In this document: piece after piece, positions 4,894 to 33,113 of the stretch
Layout of the letters: every line of letters starts with the position of its first letter
How positions within the stretch are numbered: position 1 is the first letter of the stretch
NCBI RefSeq assembly: GCF_001425325.1
Contig: NZ_LMEH01000001.1
Location: 481,898 to 545,897 of the forward strand
Length of the DNA stretch: 64,000 nt
Reading direction: 5' to 3'
DNA from: Leifsonia sp. Root1293
GTDB lineage: Bacteria; Actinomycetota; Actinomycetes; Actinomycetales; Microbacteriaceae
Notes under the pieces: model-generated
The model's input: the letters and a program-made list of their open reading frames with translations, nothing else
Database searches by the model: none
Told to the model about the DNA's origin: nothing
Position numbers and translations under genes: made by a program

Positions 4894-4950
4894 GGCGCTT
4901 CGACCGCGGACTGCGTCCGGGCCTCAGCGAGCGGGAGCCAGACGAACCGC

Positions 4951-5117
4951 CCGTTGATTGAGGAGGCCGTGAGCGCAGCGAGCAGCCGTATCGAAACGCA
5001 CCCGTTGGTTGAGTAGGCCGTGAGCGCAGCGAGCAGCCGTATCGAAACCAGGCCAAGCGCGCCACTCAATGGATCTCGATACGTGTCCGACTCCGTCGGG
5101 CACTACTCGATCAACGG
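4951..5117. repeat. Composite 41/43-bp repeat with an extra half unit
   Basis: A 43-bp-type unit (from 5002, tip CCGTTGGTTGAGTAG, centre GAGCGCAGCGAG) faces a 41-bp-type unit (5072-5112, centre CCGACTCCGTCGGG), giving a composite of 116 bp at 5002-5117. An additional degenerate copy of the first unit precedes it at 4951-4997. It lies between the converging ends of the FAD oxidoreductase and the alpha/beta hydrolase. Confidence 0.85.
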
Positions 5118-11244: not shown

Positions 11245-12267
11245 ATGGCGAGCGAAGCGACGATGCTGCGAGTACCCGGCCCCCACGGCGACAGGGAGGT
11301 GCGCATCTCAAGTCCGAGCAGGGTGATCTTCCCGGAGCCCGGGCTCACCAAGCTCGATCTCGCCGAATATCTCGTGGCGGTCGGCGACGCCTTCGTGGCG
11401 GCGAACGGCGACAGGCCCGTCTCCTTGCAGCGATTCGGCGACGGCATCGAGGGTGAGCAGTTCTTCTCGAAGAATCCGCCGAAGGGCGCCCCGGACTACG
11501 TGCGCTCCGTTCCGGTCGTGTATCCGAGTGGCCGGTCGCATCCGCAGCTCGTCATCGACGAACCCGCCGTCGCCGTCTGGGCCGTGCAGATGAACACGAT
11601 CGTGTTCCACCCGTGGGCATCGCGGGCCGGGAACTCCGACAATCCCGACGAGCTGCGCATCGACCTCGACCCTCAGCCCGGCACCGATGTCGGTGACGCC
11701 AAGGCTGCTGCGGTGGAACTGCGCTCGGTTCTCGCCGACGCCGGACTGACGGCTTTCATCAAGACCTCCGGCAACCGTGGCCTGCACGTCTTCGCTCCCA
11801 TCGAGCCGACGCACGAGTTCCTCGACGTGCGGCACGCCGTGATCGCGGCCGCGCGGGAACTCGAGCGACGGATGCCTGACGCCGTGACGACGGCGTGGTG
11901 GAAGGAGGAGCGCGGAGAGCGCATCTTCGTCGACTTCAACCAGGCGAATCGCGACCGTACGATGGCCGGCGCGTACAGCCCCCGAGCCCTGGCGCACGCT
12001 CCGGTGTCGTGCCCGATCACCTGGGAGGAGCTCGCGGACGCCGATCCGCGCGACTTCACCGTGCTCACCGTCCCCGAGCGACTGCGCACGCTCGGCGACC
12101 CGTGGGCGACGCTCCACGACGAACCCGGCCGCATCGACACGCTGCTCGAGTGGTGGGACCGCGACCTGGAGAACGGCCTCGGCGAGCTGCCCTTCCCGCC
12201 GGACTTCCCGAAGATGCCCGGGGAACCCTCGCGCGTGCAGCCGAGCCGGGCGAAGAAGGCGGAGTGA
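11245..12267 (+). CDS. DNA polymerase/primase domain protein (LigD polymerase-domain-like)
   Basis: A 340-aa stand-alone PolDom of the archaeo-eukaryotic primase superfamily. Key residues are Asp140 and Asp142 in RIDLDPQPG (metal ligands), KTSGNRGLHVFAPI (about 173-186) and a third Asp in FVDFNQANRDRTMAGAYS. FFSKNPPKGAPDYV near residue 73 is also characteristic. In bacterial end joining this domain adds ribonucleotides to fill gaps; in mycobacteria it is part of LigD or occurs alone (PolD1/PolD2). Here it is a separate gene convergent with a LigC-type ligase across a repeat block. No Ku gene is in the window. Confidence 0.9.
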   Translation: MASEATMLRVPGPHGDREVRISSPSRVIFPEPGLTKLDLAEYLVAVGDAFVAANGDRPVSLQRFGDGIEGEQFFSKNPPKGAPDYVRSVPVVYPSGRSHPQLVIDEPAVAVWAVQMNTIVFHPWASRAGNSDNPDELRIDLDPQPGTDVGDAKAAAVELRSVLADAGLTAFIKTSGNRGLHVFAPIEPTHEFLDVRHAVIAAARELERRMPDAVTTAWWKEERGERIFVDFNQANRDRTMAGAYSPRALAHAPVSCPITWEELADADPRDFTVLTVPERLRTLGDPWATLHDEPGRIDTLLEWWDRDLENGLGELPFPPDFPKMPGEPSRVQPSRAKKAE

Positions 12268-12275
12268 CTCTGTCG

Positions 12276-12886
12276 CTGGTCGAGTGGCGACCGAGCGCCC
12301 ATCTCACGTTGGTCGAGTAGCGACCGGGCGCGCTTCTTCAGTTGGTCGAGCGCTGCCCGACCCCCTTTCCGTTGGTCGAGTAGCGACCGAGCGCTCATCT
12401 TCCGTTGGTCGAGTAGCGACCGAGCGCAGCGAGGACGCGTATCGAGACCACTCTCCGCGGGCGGATGGGTGATCTCGATACGTGTCCGACTTCGTCGGGC
12501 ACTACTCGATCAGCGGGAGAGGGGGTCGGGCGCTTTCCGTTGGTCGGACAGCGACCATCCGTTGGTCGAGTAGCGACCGAGCGCGCATCTCCCGCTGGTC
12601 GAGTAGCGACCGAGCGCAGCGAGGACGCGTATCGAGACCATCCTTCGTGCGCGGATGGGTGATCTCGATACGTGTCCGACTTCGTCGGGCAATACTCGAT
12701 CAACGGGAGAGGGGGTCGGGCACTCCCGCTGGTCGAGTAGCGACCGAGCGCAGAGAGGACGCGTATCGAGACCACTTCCCGCGGGCGCATGGGTGATCTC
12801 GATACGTGTCCGACTTCGTCGGGCACTACTCGATCAGCGGAGGGAGGCTACTCGATCAGCGGAGGGGTGCTACTCGATCAGCGGGC
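12276..12886. repeat. Repeat block: three 115-bp composite units plus tip fragments
   Basis: Three composites of exactly 115 bp lie at 12402-12516, 12592-12706 and 12726-12840. Each begins with a 43-bp unit (tip CCGTTGGTCGAGTAG or CCGCTGGTCGAGTAG, centre GAGCGCAGCGAGG), has a spacer of about 20 bp ending GGATGGGT or GCATGGGT, and finishes with an inverted 41-bp unit (centre CCGACTTCGTCGGG, tip CTACTCGATCAGCGG). To the left, at 12276-12395, the outer tip of the first unit is repeated about four times. To the right, at 12840-12886, the outer tip of the second is repeated twice more. The block fills the whole gap between the converging polymerase and ligase genes. No gene is supported here. Confidence 0.95.
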
Positions 12887-12894
12887 GGCGCCGC

Positions 12895-13950
12895 CTACTC
12901 CAGCACCTTGCTGAGGTCGTAGGCCGCCGGGATCTCGAGCTGTTCGAACGTGCACGAGCGCGCATCCCGGTCGGGGCGCCAGCGTGCGAACTGCACGGTG
13001 TGCCGGAAGCGCGAACCCTCCATCTGGTCGTAGCGCACCTCCATCACCTTCGTGGGTTCGAGACGGACGAAGGAGACGTCCTTGCTGCCCGAGAACCGAC
13101 TGCGATCCGTCTCGCCCGTCACGGCGACCCCGTGCTCGTCGCGAACAACGAGGGGCGCGAGCTCGTCCACGAGCTCCAGTCGACGCGCATCAGAGAACGC
13201 CGAAGCCCCGCCGACGCTGCGCAGCTCGCCGCTGTCGTCGTAGAGCCCGAGGAGCAGCGACCCCACACCGGCGCCACTCTTGTGCACGCGGTACCCGATC
13301 ACCACCACGTCCGCCGTGCGGTGGTGCTTGATCTTCAACATCACGCGCTTGCCGGGCGCGTAGGCGGCCGCCAGCGGCTTGGCAACGACCCCGTCGAGGC
13401 CGGCGCCCTCGAACTCGACAAGCCACGCGCGGGCGAGCGCGGCATCCGTCGTGGTCCTGGTGATGGACAGGGGAGCGTCGAATCCTCGGGCGAGGGATTC
13501 CAGCGCGGCTCTGCGTTCGGCGAACGGGCGCTCCAGAAGCGACTCATCACCGAGAGCCAGCAGGTCGAAGGCCACGAACATCGCGGGCGTCTCGACCGAG
13601 AGCTTCGCGACCCTGCTCGCCGCCGGATGGATGCGCTGGGACAACGCCTCCCAATCGAGGCGCTCGCCGCCGGCGCGGGATGCGGCGCGCACCATGATCT
13701 CGCCGTCGAGCACCGTGGGCTGCGTGAGCTGCGCGGCGAAGGCGTCGACCAGCTCGGGGAAGTAGCGCGTGAGCATCTTCGAGCCGCGGCTGCCGATCTC
13801 CACGGTCTCGCCGTCGAAGTAGATCACGGCCCTGAAGCCGTCCCACTTCGGCTCGTAGAGCAGGCCGCCGGCGACGCTGTCGGCATCGGGCACGCTGTCG
13901 AGCGCTTTCGCGAGCATGGGGGAGATGGGCGACGTCGCCGAAGGTTCCAT
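12895..13950 (-). CDS. ligC: ATP-dependent DNA ligase (LigC-type)
   Basis: A 351-aa ligase consisting of an adenylation domain and an OB domain without extra modules, the size of mycobacterial LigC. Motif I is YEPKWDGFR with the adenylated Lys35. Other motifs are VLDGEIM (motif III), FDLLAL (motif IIIa), LDGVVAKP (motif IV) and RVMLKIKHHR (motif V). It seals nicks with ATP and would act with the convergent polymerase-domain protein in repair or end joining. The start ATG 13950 begins MEPSATSPISPMLAK, matching the usual N-terminus; a much longer open frame upstream is only the antisense of the epoxide hydrolase gene. Confidence 0.92.
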   Translation of the reverse strand: MEPSATSPISPMLAKALDSVPDADSVAGGLLYEPKWDGFRAVIYFDGETVEIGSRGSKMLTRYFPELVDAFAAQLTQPTVLDGEIMVRAASRAGGERLDWEALSQRIHPAASRVAKLSVETPAMFVAFDLLALGDESLLERPFAERRAALESLARGFDAPLSITRTTTDAALARAWLVEFEGAGLDGVVAKPLAAAYAPGKRVMLKIKHHRTADVVVIGYRVHKSGAGVGSLLLGLYDDSGELRSVGGASAFSDARRLELVDELAPLVVRDEHGVAVTGETDRSRFSGSKDVSFVRLEPTKVMEVRYDQMEGSRFRHTVQFARWRPDRDARSCTFEQLEIPAAYDLSKVLE

Positions 13951-13995
13951 GCGTCGATCCTGCCCGACCCGGCGGCTTTCTGCGACAGTTGACGG

Positions 13996-15120
13996 ATGAC
14001 GTCCACCCCGTTCACGATCGCCGTGCCCGACGACACGCTCGACGACCTGCGGATGCGGCTCCGCAACACCCGCTTCACCACGCCGAGTCGCTCCGAGTCC
14101 TGGGGTGCCGGCGTCGACCCCGCCTACCTCGCCTCTCTCGTCGCCGGGTGGGCCGAGTGGCTGGATTCCGACTGGCGGGCGGTGGAGGCCCTCCTGAACA
14201 CCCTCGACCACCGGATCGTCGACGTCGACGGCACCGCCATCCACATCGTGCGCGCGACCTCCGGATCGGGCGACGGTGAACGGATGCCGCTGCTGCTGAT
14301 GCACGGCTGGCCGAGCAGCTTCGTCGAGATGCTGGCGCTCATCGACGCTCTCCAGACGGCCGGCAGCCGATTCGAGATCGTCGTGCCGTCGATGCCGGGC
14401 TTCCTGTTCAGTGAGCTGCCTGACGGGCCGTTGACGCGAGAGGCGATGGCCGACGTCATGCACTCGGTCATGACAGATCACTTGGGGTTCGAGCGCTACG
14501 GGGTGTTCGGGGGAGACATCGGCGGCACTGTCGCGGCCTGGCTGGCAGCGAAGCATCCGGAGACCGTCTCCGGCCTGTACATGATCCACCCGCCGTTCCC
14601 GGCGGAGTTCGCGGCACCGCTCACCGACGATGAGCACGACTTCCTCGACGCGGAGACCGAGTTCGACGCGTCGGACGGCGGCTACTCCGCCATAATGATC
14701 ACCCGCCCCGACACGATCGGAGCCGCCGTCGCCGACTCGCCGGCCGGACTCCTCGCCTGGATCATCGACAAGTACCGCGACTGGAGCGACTGCGGCGGCG
14801 ACCTGGAGACCCGGTTCGACCGCGAGACGCTGTTCACCATCGGAACGCTGTACTGGGTCACGGAGTCGATCGGCACGTCGTTCAGACAGTACGTCGACTA
14901 CGACGCGAACCGACCGCGCCCCACCATCGGCGTGCCGGCCGGCTTCACCGTGAGCGCCGAGGCGGGCATCCGTGAGATGCCCCGCAGCATCGCCGAGAGG
15001 TCGTGCACCGACATCCGCGTCTGGCATGAGCCGTCTGTCGGCGGCCACTTCATGCCCCACGAGGAACCGCAGCTTCTCGCGGGTCATCTCACAGCCTTCT
15101 TCGCCAAGATCGGACGATGA
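13996..15120 (+). CDS. Epoxide hydrolase (EHN-type alpha/beta hydrolase)
   Basis: A 374-aa soluble epoxide hydrolase. The N-terminal EHN domain (about 5-110) is followed by the hydrolase fold with oxyanion motif HGWPSS (103-108) and nucleophile Asp174 in FGGDIGG, where an Asp instead of Ser defines epoxide hydrolases. The C-terminal His lies in VGGHFMPHEEP. It would open an epoxide to a diol. The TGA overlaps the ATG of the following ferritin-like gene by 4 nt, and a second related gene follows, so the three probably form an operon acting on one lipid or terpenoid pathway. Confidence 0.9.
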   Translation: MTSTPFTIAVPDDTLDDLRMRLRNTRFTTPSRSESWGAGVDPAYLASLVAGWAEWLDSDWRAVEALLNTLDHRIVDVDGTAIHIVRATSGSGDGERMPLLLMHGWPSSFVEMLALIDALQTAGSRFEIVVPSMPGFLFSELPDGPLTREAMADVMHSVMTDHLGFERYGVFGGDIGGTVAAWLAAKHPETVSGLYMIHPPFPAEFAAPLTDDEHDFLDAETEFDASDGGYSAIMITRPDTIGAAVADSPAGLLAWIIDKYRDWSDCGGDLETRFDRETLFTIGTLYWVTESIGTSFRQYVDYDANRPRPTIGVPAGFTVSAEAGIREMPRSIAERSCTDIRVWHEPSVGGHFMPHEEPQLLAGHLTAFFAKIGR

Positions 15121-15962
15121 CGACGGACGGGGCGGATGCGACGGATGCCCCGATGACCGGCGCCGCACGATTCGACGTCCGCGAGTTCGCCCGCACCGCC
15201 GTCGGGACGCACCGCGATCGTCTGGACGTCGAAGCCCTCGCCGCGCAGCCGCTGCCGCCGGACGCCCTGCGAGCCATGCGAGTGCTGCGGGATCTCGAGG
15301 CGGCCACCATGGATCGCCTGCGCAAAGTGCTCGTCACCGCGACGCACAAGGATGCGCGGGTGACGGCCTTCCTGGTGAGCTGGGCCTTCGAGAAGTTCTG
15401 GATCGCCGACGCCCTTACCGCCGTCATCGATGCACAGCCGGGATCGCAATCCGACGATTCCGGTGCGACGGGAGCCGCCGTTCCGCGCAGCCCTGGCGAC
15501 CGGCGTGCCCGGCGCGGGCCGGTTCGGCGCTCGCTCTCGGGGTTCCTCGCCGGCGAGTCGATCGTGGCTGTGCACGTCACGACTGGGCTCGTCGACGACT
15601 GGATGCTCCGTGCGGCTTACGAGCGGGTGATCGAACGCAGCGAGAACCCCGAGATCGGGCGTGCGCTCGGCGATGTCCTCGACCTCAAGGCACGCCACTC
15701 GCGCTTCTTCGAGGAGGAGGCGATGCATCGCCTTCTCGACAGCCCGCGCGCGGTGCGGCTCACCCGCAGGGAGTTGCGCCGAGACGTGCTTCCCCTCGGA
15801 GCGGTCGCCATCGCGCGGGCCGACCGCGCATTCTTCAGGTGGTTCTCCTTCGGCGGCGAGATCGGTCCGGTCAGGGCCCAGCGAGTCGTCGCGTGCGTCT
15901 CCGATCTGCCCGGCATGGACGACGGCACGATCGAGGCCGTGCAGCAACGACTCGCGGCCTGA
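15117..15962 (+). CDS. Ferritin-like/desaturase-like protein with degenerate iron site
   Basis: A 281-aa protein clearly related to the next gene across its length: both share PLPPDALRAMR/PLPEESLRTLR, an ExxxF-W stretch, VAVH and an ARH motif. The di-iron ligands are largely lost: the E-x-x-H of the paralogue (EFWH) reads KFWI (93-96), the second (EARH) reads KARH (191-194), and one Glu is Asp161. Only Glu61 and His194 remain. It is therefore probably a catalytically inactive partner or scaffold. A low-complexity insertion at about 107-138 (SQSDDSG, GDRRARRGPVRR) also separates it from the paralogue. Coupled to the epoxide hydrolase by a 4-nt overlap. Confidence 0.75.
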   Translation: MTTDGADATDAPMTGAARFDVREFARTAVGTHRDRLDVEALAAQPLPPDALRAMRVLRDLEAATMDRLRKVLVTATHKDARVTAFLVSWAFEKFWIADALTAVIDAQPGSQSDDSGATGAAVPRSPGDRRARRGPVRRSLSGFLAGESIVAVHVTTGLVDDWMLRAAYERVIERSENPEIGRALGDVLDLKARHSRFFEEEAMHRLLDSPRAVRLTRRELRRDVLPLGAVAIARADRAFFRWFSFGGEIGPVRAQRVVACVSDLPGMDDGTIEAVQQRLAA

Positions 15963-16002
15963 CCGCGGCGTGCTTGGATGATCAGCGGGACGAGGGAGCA
16001 CT

Positions 16003-16797
16003 GTGGCATTCGACATCGACACCTACACGGCGACGAGCGTGAGCGTGAACTGGGACGACCTCGACCTCGAGGTCTTCCGCGAGCATCCACTGCCGGAGGA
16101 GTCGCTCCGCACCCTGCGTTACATGGCCGATGTCGAGTACCACACGGTCTGCTACACCCGTGATCTGCTCACGACGCCCTCGCACCGCGAGGCCGACGTG
16201 AGTTCGTTCATGACCATGTGGAACCGCGAGGAGTTCTGGCACGGCGAGGCTCTCGCCGCCGTGCTCGCGATGCACGACATCACCATCGACTTCGACCAGC
16301 TCAAGGCCAATCGGCTGAAGCTCGGCTGGAAGGACCGCCTCGACCCCATCAAGCAGTCGGTGCTCGGTTCACTGGTCGGGGAGGACTTCGTCGCCGTGCA
16401 CATGTCGTGGGGCGCTGCGAACGAGTGGTCGGCCATCACCGCGTACAACCGCATGGCCGAACTGGAGCGGAACCCTGTTCTCGCCGAACTGCTGCGGCGC
16501 ATCGCGAAACAGGAGGCGCGGCACGTCGCCTTCTACACGTCGCAGGCCCGCGAACGGCTGGCGAGGAGTACCAAGGCGCAGAAGATCACGCGGTTCGCGT
16601 TGAGCAGGTTCTGGGCGCCCGTCGGATCCAGCATCATGGAGCGATCCGATGTGCAGCACGTCATGAACCACCTGATGAGTGGACCCGACGGGCGCAAGGC
16701 TGCCAGAAAGGTCGATGATTCGATCAGCGGGATGCCGGGACTCGCCGGACTCACGATCGTGCAGGACGCGCTCGACGAGTTGGGCGTCACGGCGTGA
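16003..16797 (+). CDS. Ferritin-like di-iron protein (acyl-ACP desaturase-like)
   Basis: A 264-aa helical protein with a complete set of putative carboxylate and histidine ligands: Glu45 (DVEYHT), Glu77-x-x-His80 (REEFWHGEAL), Glu141 (ANEWSA) and Glu171-x-x-His174 (KQEARHVAFY). Order and spacing resemble acyl-ACP desaturases (EENRHG ... QERAT ... DEKRH). The GTG start at 16003 has GAGGGAG upstream. It may oxidise or desaturate an acyl or terpenoid substrate. The degenerate paralogue is 40 nt upstream, suggesting a heterodimer. Family assignment is by motif; the substrate is unknown. Confidence 0.75.
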   Translation: MAFDIDTYTATSVSVNWDDLDLEVFREHPLPEESLRTLRYMADVEYHTVCYTRDLLTTPSHREADVSSFMTMWNREEFWHGEALAAVLAMHDITIDFDQLKANRLKLGWKDRLDPIKQSVLGSLVGEDFVAVHMSWGAANEWSAITAYNRMAELERNPVLAELLRRIAKQEARHVAFYTSQARERLARSTKAQKITRFALSRFWAPVGSSIMERSDVQHVMNHLMSGPDGRKAARKVDDSISGMPGLAGLTIVQDALDELGVTA

Positions 16798-16816
16798 AGA
16801 TCGGGCTCGGCTTTCG

Positions 16817-17221
16817 TCAGAGCGCGTCGACGTAGAGCCAGGCTCCCTGCTCCCGCACGAAGGCGCTGTTCTCGTGCTGGGCGTGCGCGACCCCGTCGTG
16901 CTTCGACCGCGCGGTGAACTCCACGGTGCCTGTCGTGTCGAACGGTCCGCCTGCCGTCGTCTCGGCGATCTCGAGCCGGAACCAGCGCACGGACGGATCG
17001 AGCTCGAGCTGCTCCGGCCGGGTCGACGGATGCCACGTTCTCAGGAGGTACGCCACATCGCCGGCCACGTAGGCCGAGTAGCGCGAGCGCATCAGCTGCA
17101 CGGCGGTGGGGGCGAGGGCCGCTCCGCTGTGGAACCGGCCGCAGCAGGAGCCGTAGGTGTCCCCGCTCAGGCAGGGGCATCGGCTGTCGTCGCTCAGCGC
17201 GGGGAAGGCGGTTGCGGTCAT
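16817..17221 (-). CDS. YchJ family protein with SEC-C motif
   Basis: A 134-aa protein of the UPF0225/YchJ group. The N-terminus has the SEC-C-like zinc motif C-P-C-x8-C-C (Cys15, 17, 26, 27), followed by an NTF2-like domain: LMRSRYSAYVAGDVAYLLRTWH is the usual beginning and WFRLEI and GTVEFTARSK are its strands. Function unknown; NTF2-like folds bind small molecules or act as small enzymes. It is read towards the end of the ferritin-like gene and its upstream region is a repeat block. Confidence 0.88.
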   Translation of the reverse strand: MTATAFPALSDDSRCPCLSGDTYGSCCGRFHSGAALAPTAVQLMRSRYSAYVAGDVAYLLRTWHPSTRPEQLELDPSVRWFRLEIAETTAGGPFDTTGTVEFTARSKHDGVAHAQHENSAFVREQGAWLYVDAL

Positions 17222-17241: not shown

Positions 17242-17571
17242 TCGCTCGTCGAGTGGCGCCCGAGCGCAGCGAGGAGTCGCGCCGATTTCAGCGGATCTCG
17301 ATACGCGTCGACTTCGTCGGCGCTACTCGATCTGCGGAGACGTGTCGGCGCTACTCGATCAGCGGGTGCCGACATCTCCTGCCGTTGGTCGAGTAGTGCC
17401 CGAGCGCAGCGAGGACACGTATCGAGACCACGTTCAGCGGGAACGGTGCTTGAGTTGCGCTGATCTCGGCGGATCTCGATACGCGTCGATTTCGTCGGCG
17501 CTACTCGATCTGCGGAGACGTTTCGGCGCTACTCGATCAGCGGAGACGTGTCGGCGCTACTCGATCAGCGG
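17242..17571. repeat. Repeat block with two composite units and amplified tips
   Basis: Two composites: a degenerate one at 17242-17337 and a better one at 17382-17515 (tip CCGTTGGTCGAGTAG, first-unit centre GAGCGCAGCGAGG, second-unit centre CGTCGATTTCGTCGG, tip CTACTCGATCTGCGG). The outer tip CTACTCGATCAGCGG is repeated after each: once at about 17351 and twice more at 17529-17543 and 17557-17571, 28 bp apart. The last copy supplies the stop codon of the luciferase-like gene that ends at 17565. The block lies between two genes read leftward and leaves little room for a separate promoter for the YchJ-like gene. Confidence 0.9.
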
Positions 17572-18581
17572 AGCGCGGGCTTGATGTCACGGACGATCGA
17601 CTCGAGGATGCGCACGTTGAAGTCGACGCCCAACTGGTTGGGAACCGTGACGAGCACTGTGTCCGCGGCCTGTACCGCAGCATCCTGAGCCAGCTCCGCA
17701 GCGATCACGTCGGGCTCGCCGATGTAGCTGCGTCCGAATCGGGCGAGGCCGCCGTCGAGGTGGCCCACCTGGTCTTTCGCGTCGGCCTGAGCCCGCAGCC
17801 CGAAGTACCGTCGCGACTCGTCGTCGATGAGCGGCAGGATGCTGCGGCTCACAGAAACCCGCGGCTCGAAGTCGTGGCCGGCATCAGCCCACGCCTCGCG
17901 GAACATCGCGATCTGCTCGGCCTGCAACTGATCGAACGGCACTCCGGTGTCCTCGGTGAGCAGAGTCGAACTCATCAGGTTCATGCCCTGCTCGGCTGTC
18001 CACACGGCAGTCTTGCGCGTGCCCGCACCCCACCAGATGCGCTGCGGCAGCGACGGGGAGATCGGTTCGATGGCGAGCGGATGCGTCGATCCCGTCATCT
18101 GCGGGTTCGCGTGGGCCAGTCCGGCTCCCGCGATGGCGGCACGGAAGAGCTCGGTGTGATCACGGGCCATGTCGGCATCCGTCTGCCCGTCGGAAGGGAC
18201 GTAGCCGAACGACTCGTAGCCCGCGAGCGCCGTCTCGGGTGACCCCCGGCTGATGCCGAGCTGCAGTCTCTCTCCGGCGATCAGGTCGGCGGCGGCCGCG
18301 GATTCGGCCATGTAGAGGGGGTTCTCGTAGCGCATGTCGATGACCCCGGTGCCGATCTCGATCCGCGAGGTGCGCGCGCCCACCGCTGCCAGAAGCGGGA
18401 ACGGCGATGCGAGCTGGCGGGCGAAGTGGTGCACCCGGAAGTAGGCTCCGTCGACGCCGATCTCCTCGGCCGCCACGGCCAGGTCGATCGACTGCTGCAG
18501 CACGTCGGCTGCGGTGCGGGTGAGGGAGCCCGGCACTGCCTGATAGTGGCCGAACGAGAGGAATCCGATGCGCTTCACCAT
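17565..18581 (-). CDS. LLM class flavin-dependent oxidoreductase
   Basis: A 338-aa luciferase-like monooxygenase fold protein. It begins MVKRIGFLSFGHYQ and contains VHHFARQLASPFPLLAAVGA, IEIGTGVIDMRYENPLYMAE and LQLGISRGSPE, which match the bacterial luciferase/alkanal monooxygenase family. Flavin or F420 use cannot be decided. ATG 18581 is chosen; the open frame upstream is the antisense of the thioesterase gene. The TGA at 17565-17567 lies inside a copy of the intergenic repeat, so insertion of the repeat may have set the present C-terminus (DIKPALR). Confidence 0.88.
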   Translation of the reverse strand: MVKRIGFLSFGHYQAVPGSLTRTAADVLQQSIDLAVAAEEIGVDGAYFRVHHFARQLASPFPLLAAVGARTSRIEIGTGVIDMRYENPLYMAESAAAADLIAGERLQLGISRGSPETALAGYESFGYVPSDGQTDADMARDHTELFRAAIAGAGLAHANPQMTGSTHPLAIEPISPSLPQRIWWGAGTRKTAVWTAEQGMNLMSSTLLTEDTGVPFDQLQAEQIAMFREAWADAGHDFEPRVSVSRSILPLIDDESRRYFGLRAQADAKDQVGHLDGGLARFGRSYIGEPDVIAAELAQDAAVQAADTVLVTVPNQLGVDFNVRILESIVRDIKPALR

Positions 18582-32899: not shown

Positions 32900-33113
32900 C
32901 CGTTGATCGAGTAGCGCCCGACGGTGTCGGCCGCGTATCGAGATCGTCGGGCGTGGTTTCGATACGCGGGCTCGCTGCGCTCGCGCGCTACTCAACCAGC
33001 GTACGGGTGGGCTCGCTGCGCTCGCGCGCTACTCAACCAGCGTGCGGGCGGGCTCTCTTGAGTATTCCGGTTGATCGAGTAGCGCCCGACGAAGTCGGAC
33101 GCGTATCGAGATC
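32900..33113. repeat. Composite 41/43-bp repeat plus single unit
   Basis: A composite at 32900-33002: a 41-bp-type unit (tip CCGTTGATCGAGTAG, centre CCCGACGGTGTCGG) faces an inverted 43-bp-type unit (centre GAGCGCAGCGAG on the other strand, tip CTACTCAACCAGCG). The terminal CTCGCTGCGCTCGCGCGCTA plus CTCAACCAGCG segment is repeated once at 33011-33042. A further lone 41-bp-type unit follows at 33068-33113 (centre CCCGACGAAGTCGG). The block separates the converging ends of the MerR and ParA genes. Confidence 0.88.

Follow-up and report, generated by a model that had tools for sequence, protein, structure and literature searches.

The plasmanylethanolamine desaturase CarF/TMEM189 (PEDS1) makes the vinyl ether of plasmalogens within a pathway of fatty acyl reductase (FAR), GNPAT/AGPAT, alkylglycerone-phosphate synthase (AGPS) and a reductase (PMC9131029, in its accessible part). 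CarF resides in the membrane and has essential histidines. Here we describe two neighboring genes, D and I, whose products may catalyze this reaction in a pathway of that kind, although they are predicted to be soluble-type helical bundles with Glu/His ligands and neither matches the CarF/PEDS1 family (PF10520, Lipid_desat) at E ≤ 1. They lie in a stretch of 64,000 nucleotides (the window) from Leifsonia sp. Root1293 (contig NZ_LMEH01000001.1; C1:481898-545897 of a 3.6 Mb genome in two contigs). I is an intact, desaturase-like di-iron protein, and D is its degenerate, ferritin-like paralogue with an incomplete metal site. In our favored reading, to which we give a probability of about 0.5, D and I would be the two subunits of a soluble di-iron desaturase, not homologous to CarF/PEDS1, that forms the vinyl ether in the plasmalogens of aerobic actinobacteria.

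Other described systems resemble the pair in one respect or another. Soluble acyl carrier protein (ACP) desaturases, such as stearoyl-ACP desaturase and DesA2 of Mycobacterium tuberculosis, are like the predicted fold of D and I, and their E/ExxH/E/ExxH ligand pattern is that of I. However, the identity is approximately 14-18%, and D-I differs from them in being a two-gene pair with a metal-less partner and a linkage to ether-lipid genes. An active protein is likewise kept together with a degenerate paralogue in yeast Rnr2/Rnr4 and in the alpha and beta hydroxylase subunits of bacterial multicomponent monooxygenases; these belong to families other than that of the putative D-I heteromer. The anaerobic PlsA/PlsR system also yields alk-1'-enyl lipids and is reported from some Actinobacteria (PMC9702350, accessible part), but it is reductive, starts from diacyl lipids and does not use AGPS. 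Finally, Myxococcus xanthus has ether-lipid genes in the MXAN_1676 operon and the elb operon; in the loci described here FAR and HAD are fused, and the parts of the M. xanthus reports available to us mention no D-I pair.

In the window, D (281 amino acids) occupies positions 15117..15962 and I (264 amino acids, GTG start) positions 16003..16797, both on the forward strand. The two proteins are homologous (32% identity, E 4e-36) and are the only two of their kind found in the genome. The ligands of I are E45, E77/H80, E141 and E171/H174, with E77 and H80 in an EFWH motif (16231..16242, forward strand) and E171 and H174 in an EARH motif (16513..16524, forward strand). The equivalent residues of D are E61, K93, I96, D160, K191 and H194, so that KFWI (15393..15404, forward strand) replaces EFWH and KARH (15687..15698, forward strand) replaces EARH. 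Relative to the six-ligand set, the D of the window has lost three ligands, has Asp for Glu at one position and retains two. Immediately upstream is a gene for an epoxide hydrolase (EH), whose stop overlaps the start of D by 4 nt (15117..15120, forward strand, read from the sequence). A preliminary description of the window had listed the three genes with these coordinates, the overlap and the ligand motifs, all of which are borne out by the open reading frames, the motifs and the homology.

We scanned named genomes with exact peptide patterns taken from D; such a scan reaches near relatives and is biased to loci that bear D. It gave 28 loci, 26 of them from genomes with Microbacteriaceae-type names or from unclassified Actinomycetota metagenome-assembled genomes, plus others including one Streptomyces. 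I stands beside D or one gene off in 27 of the 28, and in the remaining locus (L054) the contig ends before I. The two loci nearest to the window belong to its genus: Leifsonia flava (L028, genome G001) and Leifsonia sp. Leaf264 (L029, genome G002). In all 29 D proteins (28 loci and the window; numbering of I) position 77 is Lys, position 80 is Ile, position 171 is Lys and E45 is retained. Position 174 is His in 26 and Gln in three. At position 141, 22 have Glu, one has Thr and six have Asp, namely the window and the five named loci that have no reductase gene. In a wider set of 173 distinct sequences, the full ligand set is present in 92 of 94 I and in none of 79 D, which never have His at 80 or Glu at 171. 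Here the ligand positions read for the D of genus g44, the most distant ones, depend on an automatic alignment, and a frame labelled D in L156 was left out of the counts, the D profile giving no match there. One of the two exceptional I is truncated by a contig end and the other has Gln in place of the last His. In a tree of 171 of these sequences, D and I separate with a support of 1.0 and none is misplaced; the duplication that gave rise to them is therefore older than their spread over families.

At least two matches were found in 122 of the 125 I-bearing genomes of the family survey described below, and a second match lies within approximately 3 kb of I in 43 of 47 I-bearing genomes of other families. 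The ratio of nonsynonymous to synonymous substitution (dN/dS) between the window and L028 or L029 is 0.16-0.18 for D and 0.03-0.07 for I. This low ratio, and the recurrence in 28 named loci, show that the pair and the ligand losses exceed what chance would give. An account in which D is decaying and the two genes encode unrelated single enzymes is one we can hardly credit. D does evolve about 2.7 times faster than I (median over 105 pairs), and in a few D almost no ligand position is left (AAFAIQ). Against this, D has an uninterrupted reading frame in all 28 loci, the motif WAxEKFWIADAL is kept and D forms one ancient clade; we therefore reject the decaying copy. Judged by these comparisons, D and I are kept together over evolution, and D is ancient and not decaying. 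The suggestion in the preliminary description that an inactive paralogue is retained beside an active one thus holds: the losses are fixed across the whole D clade, purifying selection acts on D within the genus, and D is not strain-specific but accompanies I in nearly all genomes examined.

Some members of the two families depart from this pattern. In genus g17, the D proteins with nearly all ligand positions changed (AAFAIQ, AAFGIQ; L105 545-1387, L162 15298-16137) have an intact I next to them. Two genomes of genus g44 (G673 and G682) carry two copies of the D-I pair each. In families f5 and f15 (L139 = G038; G435; L140/L141 = G458) there are I-like proteins with no adjacent D detected, and those of L139 and L140 contain WNYEEYWHG. 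These proteins possibly represent the state before the D/I duplication.

What surrounds the pair in most relatives is a set of genes of a different kind. Between D and I lies a gene of 750-870 amino acids in which an NAD-binding_4/Sterile fatty acyl reductase is fused to HAD-IB (FAR-HAD). Divergent from D are genes for a short-chain reductase (SDR), a PlsC-type acyltransferase and an AGPS-like FAD enzyme. By clustering, FAR-HAD is present in 23 of the 28 named loci, AGPS in 22, SDR in 21 and PlsC in 14. The SDR, PlsC and FAR labels rest on clustering and on Pfam matches of representatives, some loci are cut by contig ends, and the counts are lower bounds because the simple gene finder mis-calls some frames. 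The five loci without FAR are the two of Leifsonia and three of Agromyces (L037, L048, L049). The AGPS of L030 matches the Dictyostelium enzyme 2uuu with 417.6 bits (6.6e-124) and the peroxisomal AGPS 4bby at 4.7e-88, while the next match that is not an AGPS has 79.9 bits (1.3e-21); the SHHHGVG motif is conserved across six aligned sequences. By this comparison the representative is clearly a true AGPS and not a lactate or glycolate oxidase. Taken together, the widespread partners (AGPS, acyl reductase-HAD, acyltransferase and SDR) point to ether lipids. Two further neighbors were seen. A lactate-racemase-type gene (Lar_N, PF09861) lies between FAR-HAD and I in L091 (6668-8203), L093 (6621-8162) and L096 (6379-8184), two of which are Subtercola. 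In L106 a flavin reductase (PF01613, 5531-6091) adjoins a pair without ether-lipid genes, and it is a possible electron source.

Does the association hold at the level of whole genomes? We surveyed 398 Microbacteriaceae-level genomes (family survey) and 396 genomes of the order (order survey). In the family survey, AGPS was matched at E ≤ 1e-60 in 123 genomes, and eight of these were set aside as a second, more distant AGPS-like protein with 35-39% identity (G165, G415, G087, G350, G237, G088, G019, G293; seven of the eight without I), which leaves 115. I was found in 125 genomes and FAR-HAD in 116. I is present in 115 of the 116 genomes with FAR-HAD and in 114 of the 115 with AGPS, and AGPS accompanies the reductase in 115 of 116. 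Absences in this survey were listed for 20 genomes per search and otherwise inferred from the tally. Co-occurrence p-values go down to 1e-87, treating genomes as independent and ignoring shared ancestry; counted by genus (85 genera), I is present in 32, FAR in 30 and AGPS in 33.

In the order survey, I was found in 55 genomes, 47 of them outside the family. AGPS (E ≤ 1e-250) is present in 45 of these 47, sometimes unlinked, and the two exceptions (G038, G435) likewise lack D. In genus g44 (22 genomes) the pair stands apart from AGPS throughout, at least 0.47 Mb away on the same contig in 12 genomes and on a different contig in 10; in the three loci examined (L154, L155, L159), FAR and SDR are beside AGPS. 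Other families show altered gene orders, such as I-D-FAR-SDR-PlsC-AGPS on one strand (L149, family f14) and FAR-D-I (L138, family f7), as well as the Microbacteriaceae order (L135, L136). An association that survives rearrangement and unlinking is the strongest evidence we present for the link to ether lipids. The whole set, ether-lipid genes and D-I, is also present on a 2.35 Mb linear megaplasmid of Streptomyces (L182, NZ_CP109481.1), the one record returned by a plasmid search, and a second Streptomyces carries the full set (L040). This distribution suggests transfer of the set as a block.

We then have to ask what kind of proteins D and I are. In profile searches, as the preliminary description had proposed for both proteins, D matched no Pfam or NCBIfam model at E ≤ 1, and I passed the cut-off of one only, Rubrerythrin, narrowly (23.9 against 22.8 bits). 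I falls below the curated cut-off of FA_desaturase_2 (PF03405; 19.2 against 22.7 bits), which D did not match, and we therefore describe I by its desaturase fold only and do not file it as a member of that family. AlphaFold2 models, built from alignments of 20 I and 24 D, have a mean pLDDT of 86.9 and a pTM of 0.87 for I, and 88.5 and 0.86 for D. Foldseek places stearoyl-ACP desaturase first for I (7t63, 6.8e-4). VIA-align does so as well (4v0j; Z 18.0, root-mean-square deviation 3.1, 232 residues aligned), followed by DesA2 (1za0, Z 15.8) and R2lox/R2-like oxidases (15.2). For D, Foldseek gave nothing at E ≤ 0.001, the best match being an R2-like oxidase (6.0e-3), and VIA-align gave a tie between desaturases (Z 17.4) and R2-like oxidases (16.7). 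High Z comes easily to helical bundles, and the lead of the desaturases for I is 2 to 3 units. On these models, D and I share the acyl-ACP desaturase/R2 di-iron carboxylate fold class, with the complete ligand set in I only; a di-iron fold in the intact protein, on which the preliminary description depended, is thus predicted.

A ferritin-like fold next to an acyl reductase also resembles the cyanobacterial alkane pathway. I could then be an aldehyde-deformylating oxygenase, the reductase supplying the aldehyde and I converting it to alkanes, and one such oxygenase (4rc5) is indeed among the structural matches of I. It lies far below the desaturases (E 0.10 against 6.8e-4), and the reductase travels with AGPS, for which an alkane pathway has no need. 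We disfavor alkane synthesis because of this weak match and consider it very improbable.

From gene content, co-occurrence, ligand sets, modelled folds and the identity of AGPS by sequence, we infer the following reactions, substrate and D-I complex. The reductase would produce a fatty alcohol, AGPS would exchange the acyl group of acyl-dihydroxyacetone phosphate for this alcohol, SDR would give alkyl-glycerol phosphate and the acyltransferase would fill the sn-2 position. As the last step, I, together with D, would take two hydrogens off the alkyl chain at C1'-C2', which yields the vinyl ether. Together, D and I would make up a soluble di-iron oxidase that depends on O2 and belongs to the acyl-ACP-desaturase/R2 fold class. 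I would provide the metal site and the chemistry, using two irons, O2 and electrons to abstract hydrogen next to the ether oxygen. D, with Lys at two former acidic ligand positions, should be unable to bind the same cluster and probably supports I as a conserved pseudo-enzyme partner in a structural, substrate-holding or regulatory role. That the two form one heteromer is our inference, and as a guess from the sequence, salt bridges between Lys and carboxylates might substitute for the metals in D.

Chemical data from relatives bear on this scheme. Plasmalogens form dimethyl acetals on methanolysis, and these serve as a plasmalogen signature. In Subtercola vilae, S. frigoramans, S. boreus and S. 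lobariae, dimethyl acetals account for several to many per cent of the fatty acid profile; in the part of the same paper available, Agreia is given little and none is reported for Frondihabitans (PMC5945732). I, FAR and AGPS are present in all 10 Subtercola genomes listed, including Subtercola sp. PAMC28395 (G308) and S. endophyticus (G417), so that acetals and the locus share this genus. As a negative control, Rhodoluna lacicola (G012) has none of I, FAR and AGPS, and the word "acetal" does not occur in its gas chromatography-mass spectrometry (GC-MS) paper. For Kineococcus rubinsiae, GC-MS revealed an anteiso-C15:0 acetal that the MIDI system had miscalled C14:0 2-OH (PMC7472656, accessible part). 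In Frigoribacterium, a 15:0 anteiso aldehyde or acetal is given for two species and not for two others (PMC12823222, likewise in part). The open-licence literature yielded nothing that ties plasmalogens to a ferritin-like desaturase, only an unrelated paper on Microbacteriaceae and plasmalogens, and no title on aerobic actinobacterial plasmalogens.

The association with ether-lipid genes would be the same if D-I altered the ether lipid or the fatty alcohol elsewhere than at C1'-C2', by desaturation or hydroxylation, or acted on an acyl carrier before the ether is formed, with the acetals coming from another enzyme. The fold and ligand set of I fit acyl-carrier desaturases equally well. We nevertheless regard this as rather unlikely: the locus shows no other candidate for an O2-dependent vinyl-ether step, acetals and locus coincide in Subtercola, and PF10520 was matched in none of 41 pair-bearing genomes, a search in which none of 14 control genomes matched either.

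Several observations weigh against assigning the vinyl-ether step to D-I. Since no control genome responded to the PF10520 profile, the absence of CarF is not proven. The nearest solved relatives of SDR are generic dehydrogenases. We looked for PlsA by one domain only, HGD-D (PF06050), which we take to be part of the anaerobic enzyme. It is present in four of the 41 pair-bearing genomes, two of them Subtercola, as separate short frames (in G417, two frames of 408 and 488 amino acids), and is not found in G308. The match between acetals and locus holds at the level of the genus. In the accessible part of the paper on S. endophyticus, no acetals are reported by MIDI and 2OH-C14:0 is not detected (PMC9287328). 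Acetals are likewise not mentioned in what was available of the papers on Lacisediminihabitans, a genus with the full locus (L052), or on Herbiconiux and Cryobacterium. One genome, 85% complete, has FAR and AGPS with neither D nor I (G125). Conversely, I occurs without FAR in 10 genomes of the family survey (G000, G001, G002, G081, G103, G165, G249, G337, G353 and G367, the match in G353 being weak). FAR-HAD and AGPS are both missing in the pair-bearing G001, G002, G081, G249, G103, G337, G367 and G746, and G165, also pair-bearing, has no FAR-HAD and only the more distant AGPS. The pair can thus exist without the ether pathway. The genome of the window itself (G000) belongs here: no FAR-HAD was found in it beyond a HAD fragment of 35% identity, and no AGPS at 1e-40 by profile, only other FAD oxidases of 28-31% identity.

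How are these exceptions related? The D proteins of lineages without FAR form one clade of 13 sequences (support 0.87), and the corresponding I fall in one clade of 15, which also contains two I from FAR-bearing genomes. As both group together, it appears that one branch of the pair left the ether pathway, with I still under strong constraint, and that EH was added to it in the genus of the window. With neither AGPS nor the reductase found in the genome of the window, the pair there has either another substrate or is left over; in this genus it presumably acts on another lipid, with EH possibly downstream, or is a retained remnant.

The neighbor in question, EH (374 amino acids; 13996..15120, forward strand), is an ordinary EHN-type epoxide hydrolase by its sequence. 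It matches PF06441 (epoxide hydrolase N terminus) with 89.6 bits (cut-off 22.8) and PF00561 (alpha/beta hydrolase) with 61 bits. Its alignment with epoxide hydrolases of solved structure (5f4z, E 3.6e-54) runs along the whole protein and sets its GGDIGG opposite their GGDLGA, so that the motif of the catalytic Asp nucleophile is present. An orthologue (86-87% identity) adjoins D in two of the 28 named loci, L028 and L029; the genomes were not searched for EH elsewhere. As a general partner of D-I it is therefore rejected, and the coupling to an epoxide hydrolase claimed in the preliminary description is confined to the window and these two loci. The same description envisaged oxidation of a lipid or terpenoid followed by epoxide opening: the lipid part finds support in the ether-lipid partners, while the opening of an epoxide would at most have been added locally. 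For the lineage of the window, D-I might oxidize another lipid or a small molecule, and EH might open an epoxide made by I or arising from its product. The 4-nt overlap and the conservation of EH beside D within the genus, the apparent lack of the ether genes in G000-G002, the single clade of such D proteins and the strong selection on I speak for this possibility. We hold it only tentatively: EH is not beside D in the remaining 26 named loci, including the Agromyces loci without FAR, and the other neighbors hint at no substrate. The dN/dS of EH is 0.21 in a single comparison.

Other features of the window lie around the three genes. A scan of positions 13800-17000 for promoters and terminators found none. 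Upstream of EH there is a LigD-type polymerase gene (11245-12267, forward strand), whose product is 28% identical to the LigD Prim-Pol protein of L030; with so low an identity, we dropped the idea of synteny between the window and Galbitalea by way of this gene. An apparent ATP-dependent DNA ligase gene (approximately 12895-13950, reverse strand) lies just before EH and faces the LigD-type gene, the two being separate genes. Intergenic repeats built on the palindrome-like motif CGCTGGTCGAGTAG are found at 2083-2324, 4950-5048, 12277-12884, 17297-17573 and 32966-33055. At one end of their range is a 31-nt array (7.8 copies, 97% alike), and at the other are units of 134 and 190 nt near 12.3-12.9 kb.

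It is tempting to put these findings together, with a confidence just short of even odds, as follows. Aerobic actinobacteria would have a complete, animal-like plasmalogen pathway whose last step is carried out by a second, non-homologous and soluble di-iron delta-1' desaturase with an obligate metal-less partner, and in the genus of the window this enzyme would have been released from that pathway and put to a new use next to an epoxide hydrolase. The locus provides a gene set and, in D-I, a specific candidate that can be tested for the desaturase still missing from plasmalogen synthesis in aerobic actinobacteria. If the assignment is true, O2-dependent formation of the plasmalogen vinyl ether arose at least twice, in one case through a soluble enzyme, and such an enzyme would lend itself to study far more readily than the animal membrane protein. 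Should the reaction be a different one, the pair still makes a clean case of a conserved pseudo-enzyme: the enzyme and its metal-less partner remain together across several families and track ether-lipid genes when unlinked from them.

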